Of a DNA stretch of 40,921 nucleotides, positions 1,946 to 26,591 are shown in pieces (position 1 is the stretch's first letter; every line of letters starts with the position of its first letter). The DNA comes from Patescibacteria group bacterium (lineage in GTDB: Bacteria; Patescibacteriota; Minisyncoccia; Phycocordibacterales; UBA918). The stretch lies in assembly GCA_019752815.1 (NCBI GenBank), contig JAIELQ010000007.1:1-40921 (forward strand), written 5' to 3'. The translations under genes and the position numbers were made by a program. The notes below the pieces were generated by a model. It was not told where the DNA came from. It saw only the letters and a list, made by a program, of their open reading frames with translations, and searched no databases.

Positions 1946-3133
1946 ATGAAAACCATTCTTATATCGTCGTTTATATTTTTAATAATTGGTCTAGCTGCGC
2001 CAACAGTTTTTGCGCAAGAAGAAGGGTCGGGCATCGCGCAATTATCTGGCTGTACCGGTGTAGACTGTAGTGCTTGTAATGTGGTGTACATTGCCAACGG
2101 GTTAATTAACTGGTTGATTGGAATTTTGTTTGTGGTGTTTGCACTATTGCTTGCGATAGCCGGTGTAAAGCTCGTTACTTCTGGTGGAAACCACCATGCT
2201 CTTGATGAAGCTAAAAGTTCATTTACGAATGCGATTATCGGGTTCATTATTGTTTTGGCGGCATGGATAATTGTGGATACCATCATGCGTGGGCTCGTTG
2301 GTCGCCCGGGGCAAGAAGGCATGATCGGTGGCGAAGCGACGGGCTGGTTGTTTTGGACTGAGATTGAGTGTTCGGAGCAGACGGAGACTGCTACGGAAGA
2401 CGTTGCACAACAAGCAGTAGAATACATCCCGATTGGTGCCGGACTGAGTAATACACCAGGATGGACATTCGTAAGTGCTGGAGGCAGTGGCGGCGGAGGC
2501 GGTGATGCTGGAGGGGCGGCTGGCAGAGGGGTGTATACAGCACCATGTACAAGGTCACCGGGACCGGCAGGAGAAAGTACCTACAGTTGTGCAACGCAAC
2601 AGTCACAGTGTAGGGCAGAAGGTGGTACTCCAACGTTAAATGCCTCACGAACTGTTGTGACATGTAATCCTCAACAGGTGGGTGGTGGAGGGGGTGGAAC
2701 TGTACCGACTGGCATTGTAACTAACACAGCCATGAGACCTATCTTTGACCCAGCTCAAGGTGGTTCCAGTATGGTGAGAAGTGGTGCTGCTGCCAGAATG
2801 CAACAGACTCTATCAGGTCCATTTGCTCGTCTCCAGCAGAACTTTGGTCGATCAGTGGTGATAAATGATGCAATTGCAAAAGCCGGCTCCAGTCGAGAAA
2901 GAGAGACTTCTAACTCACGACATTTTTATGGTGACGCATTGGACTTATCCACCGCTGGTATGAGCAATGCTGATAGGTTACGTCTTTTTGAGTCGGCACG
3001 TAGAGCAGGTTTTACCGGGTTTGGTTTTGGAGCTAACATACTTCATGTTGATCTCGGGCCAAGTCGAGGTTGGGCGTATGGTAATGCTACCTATGGTGGA
3101 CGTCCGGTTGGTGAGTTGATTAATTCAATTTAA
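1946..3133 (+). CDS. TrbC/VirB2-like pilin fused to an M15-type peptidase domain
   Basis: 395 residues. A signal peptide (1-23, cleavage after VFA) is followed by a Cys cluster (GCTGVDCSAC), two hydrophobic helices (about 46-77 and 95-117) with the GVKLVTSGGN / AIIGFIIVLAAW pilin signature, a Gly-rich linker and the same Cys module as its paralogue two genes upstream (YTAPCT, STYSC, QSQC). The C-terminal 133 residues carry the M15 / D,D-peptidase zinc motifs: SRHFYGDALD (His about 326, Asp about 333) and HVD (His about 367). It probably cleaves peptidoglycan stem peptides outside the cell. It shares the scaffold of the lysozyme-type pilin but swaps the catalytic domain. Last gene of the operon; a 12-bp hairpin starts at 3167. 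Confidence 0.85.
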   Translation: MKTILISSFIFLIIGLAAPTVFAQEEGSGIAQLSGCTGVDCSACNVVYIANGLINWLIGILFVVFALLLAIAGVKLVTSGGNHHALDEAKSSFTNAIIGFIIVLAAWIIVDTIMRGLVGRPGQEGMIGGEATGWLFWTEIECSEQTETATEDVAQQAVEYIPIGAGLSNTPGWTFVSAGGSGGGGGDAGGAAGRGVYTAPCTRSPGPAGESTYSCATQQSQCRAEGGTPTLNASRTVVTCNPQQVGGGGGGTVPTGIVTNTAMRPIFDPAQGGSSMVRSGAAARMQQTLSGPFARLQQNFGRSVVINDAIAKAGSSRERETSNSRHFYGDALDLSTAGMSNADRLRLFESARRAGFTGFGFGANILHVDLGPSRGWAYGNATYGGRPVGELINSI

Positions 3134-15233: not shown

Positions 15234-16100
15234 TCAAAATCGACCATGATACGTATTGCCTTCAATTGTAATGTATCCCATCATTTCCATTTGCATCAAT
15301 ACGACCACAGCTTCACTAATGGGTAATTCGAGTTTACGAATTAGGGTGTCACGGTCAGTTGGTTCATGTAGTAGGTCTAGCACTCTGGCTTCAAGTGGCG
15401 ACAGTAGGGGTAGTGTCTTGGGAGCCGATTCCATATGAATATCAATACCAAGTGCCATGAGAATATCTTCAGCTATTGTGACAGGGGTGGCGCCTAGTTT
15501 GAGAAATTGGTGCGTGCCAGCACTGTTACTTGCAAAAATACTGCCGGGCACCACGAGGAGTTCACGATTGTAGTCTACGCACAGGCGGGCGGTGATCAAG
15601 GTGCCTGACTTGGCACCAGCTTCAATCAGTAAAGTCGCCGGACACATCCCGGCCATAATGCGATTACGCTGCGGAAATGTCCATTTAGCGGCTTTGGTCA
15701 AAGGCGATAGTTCAGATAGTAGTCCGCCGCCTGCATCAACTATCGTGCGGGCTAAATTGCGATTACTCGCCGGATACAGTACTGATTCATCGAGTCCGCT
15801 CCCTGGGACAGCGAGCGTGTATAAACCGTGTCGCAAGGCTGCATCGTGCGCGAGGGCGTCCACACCGAGGGCGAGACCAGAGACAATGCCAATCGGGTAA
15901 TCGGCGAGACCGCTTATGAGATGTTCGATAACCTGTTTTCCGTAGGTAGTGTATTTGCGAGAGCCTACTACTGCAAGGAGTGTGAGATCAGGTGGAGGGA
16001 GATTTCCGACGGCCCACAGTTCAGAAGGAGGTTGGGGGATTTCCGCTAGCAGAGACGGGAACTCGGCGGTTCCTAGCTTACGAGGAGAGAATGAACTCAT
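15234..16100 (-). CDS. dprA: DNA processing protein DprA
   Basis: 288 residues. It loads RecA on incoming single-stranded DNA during natural transformation. The Rossmann-like core shows VVGSRKYTTYG, IVSGLALGVDALAHDAAL, PGSGLDESVLYPASNRNLA, FPQRNRIMAGM and LIEAGAKSGTLITAR. A C-terminal winged-helix (about 225-288) follows. The N-terminal SAM-like domain of longer DprA proteins is absent. TACAAT (16107-16112) lies 6 nt before the ATG, so a leaderless message is likely. It ends in TGA and is followed by the TrpR-like gene. It suggests competence, though no com genes are in the window. Confidence 0.94.
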   Translation of the reverse strand: MSSFSPRKLGTAEFPSLLAEIPQPPSELWAVGNLPPPDLTLLAVVGSRKYTTYGKQVIEHLISGLADYPIGIVSGLALGVDALAHDAALRHGLYTLAVPGSGLDESVLYPASNRNLARTIVDAGGGLLSELSPLTKAAKWTFPQRNRIMAGMCPATLLIEAGAKSGTLITARLCVDYNRELLVVPGSIFASNSAGTHQFLKLGATPVTIAEDILMALGIDIHMESAPKTLPLLSPLEARVLDLLHEPTDRDTLIRKLELPISEAVVVLMQMEMMGYITIEGNTYHGRF

Positions 16101-16131
16101 TTAAAAATTGTAGCATACAGTCGCGTAAATA

Positions 16132-16160
16132 TTGACTTTTTAATAAAATTGTGCTAATAT
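16132..16160 (+). promoter_or_regulatory. strong sigma-70-type promoter of the barrel-like gene
   Basis: TTGACT (16132-16137), 17-bp spacer, TAATAT (16155-16160). It lies about 50 nt upstream of the start, so this mRNA has a leader with a ribosome site. Confidence 0.8.
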
Positions 16161-16209
16161 ATAAGTTGGTTCAACGCTAAAAAAAGAGCACAAAGAGGGC
16201 AGTACAAAG

Positions 16210-16920
16210 ATGAAAATGGACAATAAAATAGTTTTCTTGATCGCCGCCATGACCATCGCTAGTGTGATTGGTTTGGCAACAAGCGCTTTCGCCGAGGGCA
16301 AACGTCCCTTTACCGGTCTGTATGTTGCTGTCGGGCAGCAACAGTCCACCGGGAGCTTCTCGTTGTCACATGAGGGGTCGCAGCTTTCCTTCGGTCAAAT
16401 CTTCAATGTTCCCCTTGAAGGCGATACTGCAACCTATGAGGTTGGGTACCGGCTTCCGATTGGTGCGAGCAATCTGCGTCTCGGCATCAACGCCGTGTTG
16501 CACGATGGTGCGATCGGTGGCAGCAAGAGCTGGCACTCGAAGTACGTATCGGCAGCATTTACTGTGACGTCTGATCTACGTCTGTCTCTCGGGACTGAGG
16601 TGGGTGTGTTGCTCGGCAAACGGGAGCGTCTGTATGCCCATGCCGGAGCTGGTGTGGTGGCGACCAATCTGACCGCCGGTCTGTCGATTGATACCCCCTG
16701 GGGTGGCTGGGCAGATCAAAAGGAAGGCGGAGCTATTGGCGCTATTTACCGGATTGGTCTGGCGTACCAGGTGAGTGACCGGCTGTCGGTTGGCCTGTCG
16801 GCGAGCCAAATGTCATTCAATGCCGGCAAGGCATTTGATATCGACAGCATTGGTAAGCAAAACCTGTCTGCCGAACTCAAACAAACGACCGTCGGAGTGA
16901 ACGTAAGTTACAATTTCTGA
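16210..16920 (+). CDS. exported beta-barrel-like outer-membrane-type protein
   Basis: 236 residues. The signal peptide has a hydrophobic core at about 7-22 and ends SAFA (about 25-28). The rest is alternating-hydrophobic strands: FTGLYVAVGQQQ, ATYEVGYRLPIG, LRLGINAV, YVSAAFTV, YAHAGAGVVA, IYRIGLAYQ, LSVGLSASQM. The C-terminus VGVNVSYNF ends in Phe, as in barrels recognised by the BAM complex, and the order matches the OmpA-like/OMP_b-brl fold of about eight strands. This is odd for Patescibacteria, which are not thought to have a classical outer membrane. It has its own strong promoter, an AGAGGG ribosome site, a TGA stop and a terminator, with GC-rich codons. Transfer is possible. Confidence 0.75.
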   Translation: MKMDNKIVFLIAAMTIASVIGLATSAFAEGKRPFTGLYVAVGQQQSTGSFSLSHEGSQLSFGQIFNVPLEGDTATYEVGYRLPIGASNLRLGINAVLHDGAIGGSKSWHSKYVSAAFTVTSDLRLSLGTEVGVLLGKRERLYAHAGAGVVATNLTAGLSIDTPWGGWADQKEGGAIGAIYRIGLAYQVSDRLSVGLSASQMSFNAGKAFDIDSIGKQNLSAELKQTTVGVNVSYNF

Positions 16921-16931
16921 CGGACGATACC

Positions 16932-16961
16932 GCAGCGGGCCCCCCAGCCCGCTGCTTTTTT
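16932..16961 (+). terminator. terminator of the barrel-like gene
   Basis: 9-bp stem GCAGCGGGC/GCCCGCTGC followed by T6. Confidence 0.9.
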
Positions 16962-17050
16962 AGTCACTATTTTCTGTTGACTATTGAAATTATTGGAGTA
17001 GTCTTTTCGATTGGGAGTTCCCAAAAAAAACAAAATAAAAGGAGGTTCAC

Positions 17051-17503
17051 GTGGGACGTGATGTCGTAAAATATAAACCGGTAAAAAAATCAAAACCGGT
17101 GGTTCATACCTGGCGAAATCGCCGGCAAAAACCTTGGACGTCATTTTGTGACACCCGGGCAATAGTGGCGGTGATGATTCGGCTGCATGAGCTCGATCGT
17201 CAAGAGTATCTGTCGCTGGCACAGGTGTTGGATTTTATCGCTGCAGGAGATCTGGGTTGCTTGCCCTCATTGCGGCGGACAGACATCATCGAGGCCTTTT
17301 ATGGACGTCATGATGTCTCCTCGGTAGTTCCTGTGTTGATAGCGCATCTCGTGATGGAAGGAGTGCTCATTACCGAATGTGTGTACGAAAAAGTGAGTAA
17401 GCGACTGCGCGTTAATCCCGATGAAGTTCCTTCGTTGAACGCGCATCATGCTACGGTGGACCGTAACGGTTCCGAATCGGCAAAATTCACTGTCGTGTCG
17501 TAG
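17051..17503 (+). CDS. hypothetical protein with basic N-terminus
   Basis: 150 residues from GTG 17051, with AAAGGAGG 5 nt upstream, the best ribosome site in the window. The first ~32 residues are Lys/Arg rich and likely disordered. Residues 35-125 look helical and could form a winged-helix-like fold (IVAVMIRLHELDRQEYLSLA, VVPVLIAHLVMEGVLI). No family recognised, and no catalytic pattern. It has its own terminator, so it is another single-gene unit beside the barrel gene. Confidence 0.7.
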   Translation: MGRDVVKYKPVKKSKPVVHTWRNRRQKPWTSFCDTRAIVAVMIRLHELDRQEYLSLAQVLDFIAAGDLGCLPSLRRTDIIEAFYGRHDVSSVVPVLIAHLVMEGVLITECVYEKVSKRLRVNPDEVPSLNAHHATVDRNGSESAKFTVVS

Positions 17504-17510
17504 TGATGTG

Positions 17511-17544
17511 AATCGGCGACCCAACCTTGGGTTGCCGATTTTTT
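17511..17544 (+). terminator. terminator after the hypothetical gene
   Basis: AATCGGCGACCCAA / TTGGGTTGCCGATT stem (one mismatch) followed by T5. Confidence 0.9.
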
Positions 17545-17598
17545 GTATGGGTAAGACAGTATTGAAAATAATGTAATTTCTAGTATCCTGAGTGGACT

Positions 17599-18876
17599 AT
17601 GTTAGATATCAAATTTATCCGGGAGAATTTGGAGATTGTAAAGTTGGCGGCAACCAAAAAGAAAATAAAAGTTGATCTTGATCGACTCGTGACCGTTGAT
17701 GATGCGCGCAAAGCGGTGATGACGGAACTGGAAACCAAAAAAGCCGAACAAAACCGTGTGTCCGCTGATGTGGCAACTGCTACTCCCGAAGTCCGTACCC
17801 AGCTGATTCAAGAGATGCAGACTCTCAAAGCATCTATTCAGGCCGACGAAGAAAAACTAAAACCCCTGATGGATGAGTGGAAGGGATTAATGCTTCAGGT
17901 GCCAAATATTCCTGATATGTCAGTACCCGACGGTGACAGTGATGCTGACAACCTGGAGATTAAAGTCTGGAACCCTGATGGAGCTACAGAAGCGCCGGCT
18001 CCAAAACCATTCCCCATGAAAGATCATGTGGAACTGATGACTGCACTCAAAATGGTTGATTTTGAACGGGGAGTAAAAGTACACGGATTTCGCGGGTACT
18101 TTCTCACTGGTGACGGAGCGCGGTTGTCATGGGCGATTTGGAATTACGCGAACGATTTTTTTGGTCAAAAAGGCTTTGAACAATTGCTTGGGCCAACGAT
18201 TGTGCGTAAAAGTAACCTCTACGGTACAGGGCATTTACCGAACGATGCCGAAGATTTGTATTTCACCCAAGATGATGATGTATTGATTGGTACGAGTGAG
18301 GTTTCTACTATGGGCTTTTATGCTGATGAGGTTTTAGATAAAGCTGTATTTCCAATTAAACACCTGGCGTTTTCGCCGTGTTACCGACGCGAAGCCGGCA
18401 GTCACGGTAAAGATACAAGAGGGCTCATTCGGGTGCACGAATTCTTTAAAGTCGAACAAGTTGTGTTGTGTGAAGCTTCACACGAAGAGAGTGTTCGTCT
18501 GCACGAAGAGATTAATCGCAATACCGAGGAATTTATTGAGTCACTGGGAATTCCGTACCATACTGTCTTAAACTGTGGTGGTGATATTGGACAGGGGCAG
18601 GTTAAAAAATACGATATCGAACTCTGGGTGCCAGGCGAAAAGACCTATCGCGAAATTAGTTCCGCTTCATACTTCCATGATTTTCAAACTCGTCGTTTTA
18701 ACATTCGCTACAAAGACGAGAGCGGTGTGATGCGCTACGCCCACTCACTGAACTGTACTGCCATTCCGACGCCACGAATTTTAGTTTCACTGGTTGAAAA
18801 CTTCCAACAAGCTGATGGTACGATTGTGATTCCGCCGGTATTGCAGACTTACTTTGGTAAAGCAAAAATTGGCTAG
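17599..18876 (+). CDS. serS: seryl-tRNA synthetase
   Basis: 425 residues. The N-terminal tRNA-binding coiled coil (about 30-105) is followed by the class II catalytic core: TGDGARLSWAIWNYA, GTGHLPNDAEDLYF, motif 2 in FSPCYRREAGSHGKDTRGL and motif 3 in CTAIPTPRILVSLVENFQQ. The length is typical. TATCCT (17584-17589) lies 9 nt before the ATG. A terminator hairpin ends at 18987. Confidence 0.97.
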   Translation: MLDIKFIRENLEIVKLAATKKKIKVDLDRLVTVDDARKAVMTELETKKAEQNRVSADVATATPEVRTQLIQEMQTLKASIQADEEKLKPLMDEWKGLMLQVPNIPDMSVPDGDSDADNLEIKVWNPDGATEAPAPKPFPMKDHVELMTALKMVDFERGVKVHGFRGYFLTGDGARLSWAIWNYANDFFGQKGFEQLLGPTIVRKSNLYGTGHLPNDAEDLYFTQDDDVLIGTSEVSTMGFYADEVLDKAVFPIKHLAFSPCYRREAGSHGKDTRGLIRVHEFFKVEQVVLCEASHEESVRLHEEINRNTEEFIESLGIPYHTVLNCGGDIGQGQVKKYDIELWVPGEKTYREISSASYFHDFQTRRFNIRYKDESGVMRYAHSLNCTAIPTPRILVSLVENFQQADGTIVIPPVLQTYFGKAKIG

Positions 18877-25913: not shown

Positions 25914-26591
25914 ATGAAAACAGGTAGGGTTCAAGAAACAAGTTCAAAAGAAAAAATTGCTGCTACAATGCGCATGCGTGGTATAGATAACTTTGCTAAC
26001 TATCGTGCAGATATATTAGCAAAAAGACCAGAATCATATTTTGTAATTTGTGAGTCTGCAAAACTCGCAGAATTATTGGGCGTGGTTTTAGGTGATGGCT
26101 ACATTGGTGCACATGCTCGCACAGAAGTCTTGCGAATTGCTTGTAACTATAATAATCCTGGTTTTATTAAGAGATATAGTACTTTGGTTGAAACAGTATT
26201 TGATAAGCAGCCTTCTGTAAAAAAGCGACGTACTTCAAATTGTGTAGATATCGTTATTTATCAAAAGGGAATCGCCGCACGACTCGGACTCGAGACGGGT
26301 ACCAAGACTCACAGACCCTTTATTTTACCTGAATGGATAAAATCAAATCAAGAATACCAAATTAGTTTCTTAAGAGGTCTTTTTGAGACAGATGGATGTC
26401 ACGCTACACATTTGCCAACTTATACTTACAAGTTCATATTTTCAAACGTGAATCAAAGTTTACTGGACACGGTTTTTATGTTACTTTGTGGTCTCGGATT
26501 TAATCCAATAAAAACCGATAAAACCATTCAACTTTCAAGAAAAGCTGAAGTTGAAAGGGCGGTAAAGTTGATTAAGTTCAGACAATACTAA
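25914..26591 (+). CDS. LAGLIDADG-type homing endonuclease-like protein
   Basis: 225 residues. Two copies of the dodecapeptide helix are seen: LAELLGVVLGDGYIG (about 51-65, acidic Asp) and FLRGLFETDGCH (about 150-161, acidic Asp), so it is a monomeric double-motif enzyme. Strand-rich DNA-binding segments follow each motif. It is free-standing, not in an intron or intein that I can see, and stops 4 nt before tRNA-Gln. TAAAAT (25902-25907) ends 6 nt before the ATG. Its codons are AT-rich like the island that follows. The cleavage target cannot be read; the adjacent tRNA region is a candidate. Confidence 0.85.
   Translation: MKTGRVQETSSKEKIAATMRMRGIDNFANYRADILAKRPESYFVICESAKLAELLGVVLGDGYIGAHARTEVLRIACNYNNPGFIKRYSTLVETVFDKQPSVKKRRTSNCVDIVIYQKGIAARLGLETGTKTHRPFILPEWIKSNQEYQISFLRGLFETDGCHATHLPTYTYKFIFSNVNQSLLDTVFMLLCGLGFNPIKTDKTIQLSRKAEVERAVKLIKFRQY

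Follow-up and report, generated by a model that had tools for sequence, protein, structure and literature searches.

An outer-membrane-type beta-barrel gene in the dprA-serS gap of a Kaiserbacteria-related genome without detected Omp85

The barrel gene and its chromosomal position

The window, meaning the whole stretch of DNA analysed here, covered the initial 40,921 bases of a contig of 190 kb belonging to a genome of 1.04 Mb (G000; completeness 99.97%, contamination 2.12%). An orphan outer-membrane-type beta-barrel gene and an ORF of 150 aa were located together inside the gap between dprA and serS (Table 1). The SerS encoded beside them was 70-77% identical to those of Ca. Kaiserbacteria/Paceibacterota MAGs. 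The 150-aa ORF, the second cargo gene of the gap, had no database match. ORFs of similar size were present in the gaps of other species; their kinship to this ORF is uncertain and could not be demonstrated.

Table 1. Features in and around the dprA-serS gap (window coordinates)
Feature	Position	Strand	Basis
dprA, left border of conserved CPR gene order	15234..16100	-	Pfam, gene order
Sigma-70-like promoter candidate TTGACT-17-TAATAT, extended -10 (TG)	16132..16160	+	9/12 matches
Orphan outer-membrane-type beta-barrel CDS, 236 aa	ATG 16210 to stop 16920	+	PF13505 above cut-off
Sec signal peptide, 28 aa, MKMDNKIVFLIAAMTIASVIGLATSAFA, cleavage between AFA and EG	16210..16293	+	Read from sequence; passes signal-peptide screen
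Mature eight-stranded barrel (predicted)	16297..16917	+	AlphaFold2 model, Foldseek
C-terminal strand TVGVNVSYNF, partial BAM beta-signal	16888..16917	+	Sequence vs G008, G747
Intrinsic terminator, 9-bp stem GCAGCGGGC/.., loop 6, then TTTTTT	16932..16955	+	Sequence
150-aa ORF, second cargo gene of gap	17051..17503	+	Database searches
serS, right border of conserved CPR gene order	17599..18876	+	Pfam, gene order, SerS lineage

The initial annotation had credited the barrel gene with a strong promoter of its own. A promoter-like site with an extended TG was present, but its strength was not borne out: about 1.0 site of this quality would be expected by chance in the stretch, and the site is therefore only suggestive. 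The terminator immediately downstream of the gene was clear.

Throughout the genus the gene order was topA, a small gene in some genomes, dprA and then serS, and the dprA-serS gap often measured 24-340 bp. The gap (window 16101-17598; loci L033-L057 and L097-L110) was a variable insertion hotspot. Its cargo elsewhere in the genus included an EAL protein, an acetyltransferase, long coiled-coil proteins, a 3-methyladenine-glycosylase-like protein and small unknown ORFs. In the nearest relative (G029; SerS 87% and DprA 72% identical) the gap was 177 bp long and held no barrel gene, that is, the site was empty. A detectable barrel gene occurred in only two of the 38 genomes of the genus. The second one, from Ca. 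Kaiserbacteria CSBr16_199 (G008; SKHJ01000040.1), lay in the same gap and in the same orientation. It encoded a divergent barrel with 21% identity to the window protein, with its own signal peptide and the end ..GVRWRF.

Some other genes of the window were also recorded. Two proteins encoded at 160-1422 and 1946-3133 started with a transmembrane segment resembling T4SS pilins, and the first of them matched PF18895. Their C-terminal ends looked peptidoglycan-cleaving (lysozyme-like and M15-peptidase-like, respectively), which gives both the layout of a pilin-hydrolase fusion. An ORF for a LAGLIDADG-like endonuclease (25914-26591) was found directly 3' of two tandem phosphoglycerate-mutase-like genes.

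Fold and family of the encoded protein

The signal peptide, strand-rich body and C-terminal Phe, which had been taken as marks of an OmpA-like barrel, were all confirmed. The body contained no cysteine and had an alternating strand pattern. The protein matched PF13505 (OMP_b-brl) with 33.1 bits, the curated cut-off being 28.7, and the match covered residues 15-236 and positions 2-175 of the 175 profile positions. Further profile matches were obtained with the Hbp autotransporter barrel, NspA, OmpA and Opa. The Pfam search gave no match to PF01389 or PF00691 (OmpA transmembrane and OmpA C-terminal domain), NCBIfam and PHROGs yielded nothing useful, and a phmmer search of the PDB with the window protein alone found no match. 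In the C-terminal end ..TTVGVNVSYNF the beta-signal positions were occupied by F at -1, Y at -3, V at -5 and V at -7, with Gly at -8 where the motif expects it at -6. The motif was intact, with Gly at -6, in the barrels of G008 (..SAGVRWRF) and G747 (..LAGINYRF).

AlphaFold2 gave no confident model from the single sequence of the window protein (pLDDT 31). With an alignment of nine rows, made up of the window protein, its relative from CSBr16_199 and seven barrels from viral contigs, the model had eight long strands (7-26, 36-54, 60-80, 84-105, 110-131, 138-158, 163-177 and 189-206, residues counted from 16297), a mean pLDDT of 83.7 and a pTM of 0.75, and the strands were mostly above 90. Since the alignment consisted mostly of known barrels, this model is supportive but not independent; the match to PF13505 was obtained independently of the alignment. 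Foldseek comparison of the model with solved structures returned OmpA (9fzd, E 7.7e-10), Ail (7.7e-8), NspA (3.6e-6), OmpW (4.4e-6) and OmpX, and comparison with viral models returned phage-borne entries annotated 'outer membrane protein beta-barrel'. The predicted fold thus resembled the transmembrane domain of OmpA as well as Ail/OmpX, NspA and OmpW, although sequence identity was only 12-14%, and the peptidoglycan-binding domain of OmpA was absent. With the PF13505 family the window protein shared the full-length match, the signal peptide, the C-terminal Phe and the predicted eight strands. Members of this family are normally found in diderms with BAM, whereas no Omp85 was detected in the window genome. 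The model supports the conclusion that the gene encodes a small eight-stranded barrel of the OmpA type.

Barrels and Omp85 in other genomes

A search of the order with a profile built from the model alignment, covering 397 genomes, revealed four further Paceibacterota species with barrels, all at sites other than the dprA-serS gap and all passing PF13505. In G648 the gene lay between hisS and S21/ybeY/ftsA/ftsZ, in G763 between class-I lysyl-tRNA synthetase and greA with mreB nearby, in G747 near hpf, fmt, def, murA and mreB on a 259-kb contig, and in G690 3' of lepA and a small FtsB-like gene with valS nearby; the names of these neighbours were partly read from the sequences. Each of the six barrels of the order was intact and had its start, a signal peptide and an aromatic residue at the C-terminus. 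Beyond what the initial annotation had considered, the window barrel is not an isolated case: barrels of this kind occur in five more species of Paceibacterota, in one of them at this very locus. They were rare in the wider phylum, where 380 genomes gave two other matches, one located on a viral-type contig.

Two barrels in CPR bins were set aside as not belonging to CPR bacteria. The protein on G147:C48 (L012) was the same as that of IMG/VR contig 3300031184_000007 (L198/L199); either the barrel of G147 is carried by a phage or the bin contains a viral contig. The barrel of G367 lay on a contig (G367:C18; L016, L026) with a BamA-like Omp85 and a Bacteroidota-like OMP, which is probably contamination.

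Proteins of other families or sizes than the window barrel were observed as well. G425, a genome reported as 100% complete, encoded a complete FadL/TodX-family protein on a 290-kb contig (PF03349, E 3e-43; L014, G425:C2:250299-250772 and around). Barrel-like secreted proteins were present in the CPR genomes G333 (L013, L023), G168 (L017) and G170 (L021), those of G333 and G168 being of the same family. Ca. Paceibacter sp. bin98o (L193:7953-8600) encoded, 3' of serS, a 208-aa protein with a signal peptide and the end ..GIAYKF, which was barrel-like by pattern and had no Pfam match. The genome profile search found no Omp85 in G425, G333, G168 or G170.

The check for BAM genes proposed in the initial annotation gave no Omp85/BamA (PF01103) in G000, where the profile search of this 99.97%-complete genome produced no match at E 10. 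The other five barrel-bearing genomes of the order (G008, G648, G690, G747 and G763) likewise gave none. Across the phylum, PF01103 was matched in just two of 380 genomes; one match scored under the cut-off, and the other was on a contaminant-like contig that carried a Bacteroidota-like barrel as well. In a control search, seven of 14 known genomes scored above the cut-off. The genome search uses a loose first look, and a PF13505 query missed the window protein itself, so that the absence of Omp85 holds at that sensitivity and divergent members can escape. Together with the affiliation of SerS, this result fits the single-membrane lineage that had been presumed.

A survey of titles and abstracts in the open-access literature turned up no account of outer-membrane barrels in Patescibacteria. 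The pattern of barrels across Paceibacterota, with a second barrel in the same gap within the genus and barrels in four more species of the order, all without detectable Omp85, is therefore provisionally regarded as new.

Origin and possible role of the barrel

Among the 38 genes of the window, the barrel gene ranked first both in GC3s and in deviation of codon usage, with pyrF close behind. The barrel genes of the other species had a GC3 of 0.57-0.83 as compared with about 0.4-0.6 in their neighbours and exceeded most or all of these; the G008 barrel gene had a GC content of 0.60 on a contig of 0.51. Because of this extreme composition and the empty site in the nearest relative, it is likely that the window gene was transferred into the genome, as had been suggested as one possibility at the outset.

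The best matches of three barrels were Hyphomicrobiales plasmid genes annotated as outer membrane/porin family (G763, E 6e-17; G747, 1e-31; G648, 1e-23), and that of the CSBr16_199 barrel was likewise from this family in Hyphomicrobiales, but weak. Four of the six barrels of the order (G763, G747, G648 and CSBr16_199) thus resemble Omp25/31 of Hyphomicrobiales, while the window protein itself shows generic barrel kinship only. In hhalign, the pair of window and CSBr16_199 proteins matched the Brucellaceae Omp25/31 profile with a probability of 95-96% and a score of 57-64 (shuffled maximum 21.5), a signal that came mostly from the CSBr16_199 protein. The window protein alone scored 28.9 against the alphaproteobacterial profile, barely above the controls (shuffled maximum 20.1, reversed profile 25.5). 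Its layout (FTGLYVAVG.., ..GLAYQVSDRLSVGL.., ..VGVNVSYNF) is like that of the Omp25/Omp31 type, to which it has about 20% identity, too little to show direct descent.

No tblastn match to the window protein was obtained in plasmids, and no close relatives were found in genome contigs, plasmids, phages or viral contigs. Weak tblastn-type matches in other genomes of the family were dropped as frames lying over other genes, for example that of a protein of about 570 aa with EYTSPN..PLHVGN, consistent with ArgRS.

In the barrel tree the window protein paired with that of CSBr16_199 (91/82), the branches being very long, and a shared ancestry of these gap barrels is plausible. The protein phylogeny called for earlier did not decide between one and several origins, a single CPR clade not being rejected (p-AU 0.41) with branches of this length.

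We consider it most likely that the gene originated in a diderm and has been retained as a working gene, and that its product leaves the cytoplasm through Sec and functions where the cell meets a diderm partner; a probability of about 0.5 is assigned to this explanation. Its main rival is that genes for outer-membrane proteins of diderm neighbours enter DNA-importing cells, become inserted at hotspots like the dprA-serS gap and remain there for some time without function, which is possible if on balance doubtful. The varied cargo of the gap across the genus, the sporadic distribution of the barrels and their foreign composition speak for such passengers. The intactness of all six barrels speaks against them, and the pairing of the window and CSBr16_199 barrels in the tree would imply long retention in the genus. 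Repeated return of one protein class would also be unexpected from random import, a point that is biased in that a profile search returns that class only. An unusual envelope of the owner, with an outer layer in Kaiserbacteria that takes the barrel without BamA, is very unlikely. Several species do keep barrels that have a signal peptide and a beta-signal, whether partial or full, and small barrels can insert unaided into thin bilayers in vitro. Against this stand the results of the Omp85 searches in the six barrel-bearing genomes and across the phylum, the lack of such a gene in most close relatives and the lack of support apart from the barrel itself. Patescibacteria are, moreover, treated in the literature as being without an outer membrane (PMC12102498).

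An artefact of assembly or binning, by which a proteobacterial fragment was joined into a CPR contig, is extremely unlikely. The barrel gene is compositionally odd and contaminant barrels exist in some CPR bins (G367:C18; G147:C48), but the CPR genes at either border are intact and follow the conserved topA-dprA-serS order on a 190-kb contig, which, as a check of linkage, disfavours a chimeric contig. The barrel in the same gap of the independent assembly CSBr16_199 and the Kaiserbacteria/Paceibacterota lineage of SerS argue in the same direction, as do the four other bins in which barrels lie between CPR genes for cell division or translation. Least probable of all is the reading that the protein is secreted and beta-rich but forms no membrane barrel. 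The failure of the single-sequence model and the bias introduced by an alignment of mostly known barrels would allow it, but PF13505 was matched above the cut-off without that alignment, and the alternating strands, the absence of cysteine, the C-terminal aromatic residue and the high strand confidence all disfavour the non-barrel fold.

According to the explanation preferred here, a diderm gene would have been taken up and inserted at a variable site in the chromosome of a Kaiserbacteria member, and kept there as a working unit that has a terminator and probably also a promoter of its own. Signal peptides direct proteins to Sec, and its signal peptide suggests that the barrel would leave the cell by this route. 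Barrels of the OmpA/Omp25 class need Omp85 for membrane entry in living cells. As the owner has no detectable Omp85 for a membrane of its own and the barrel is nevertheless intact, we infer that it most likely acts outside the owner's cytoplasmic membrane, where the cell touches a diderm partner (host or prey). There it may serve as an adhesin, a pore or a surface mimic, located in the outer membrane of the partner or on it. The epibiotic lifestyle and the missing outer membrane reported for Patescibacteria (PMC12102498) fit a role of this kind. With a barrel detectable in just two of the 38 genomes in the genus, the gene cannot be essential to the lifestyle. It may even be, though this is rather unlikely, that epibiotic Paceibacterota repeatedly recruit small barrels of alphaproteobacterial partners and insert them into the outer membrane of the partner, whose BAM would be used, to serve as docking sites or pores, in which case the type of barrel would point to the host.

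The presence of an OMP gene alone does not prove a diderm envelope. Little is known of how CPR bacteria lacking an outer membrane interact with diderm hosts or of which hosts these are, and six Paceibacterota species with intact chromosomal outer-membrane barrels and no detectable BamA provide a concrete, testable lead. The barrels may represent a set of proteins working outside the cell that makes them. Alternatively, they may be a record of transfer that points to hosts, namely alphaproteobacteria for four of the six.
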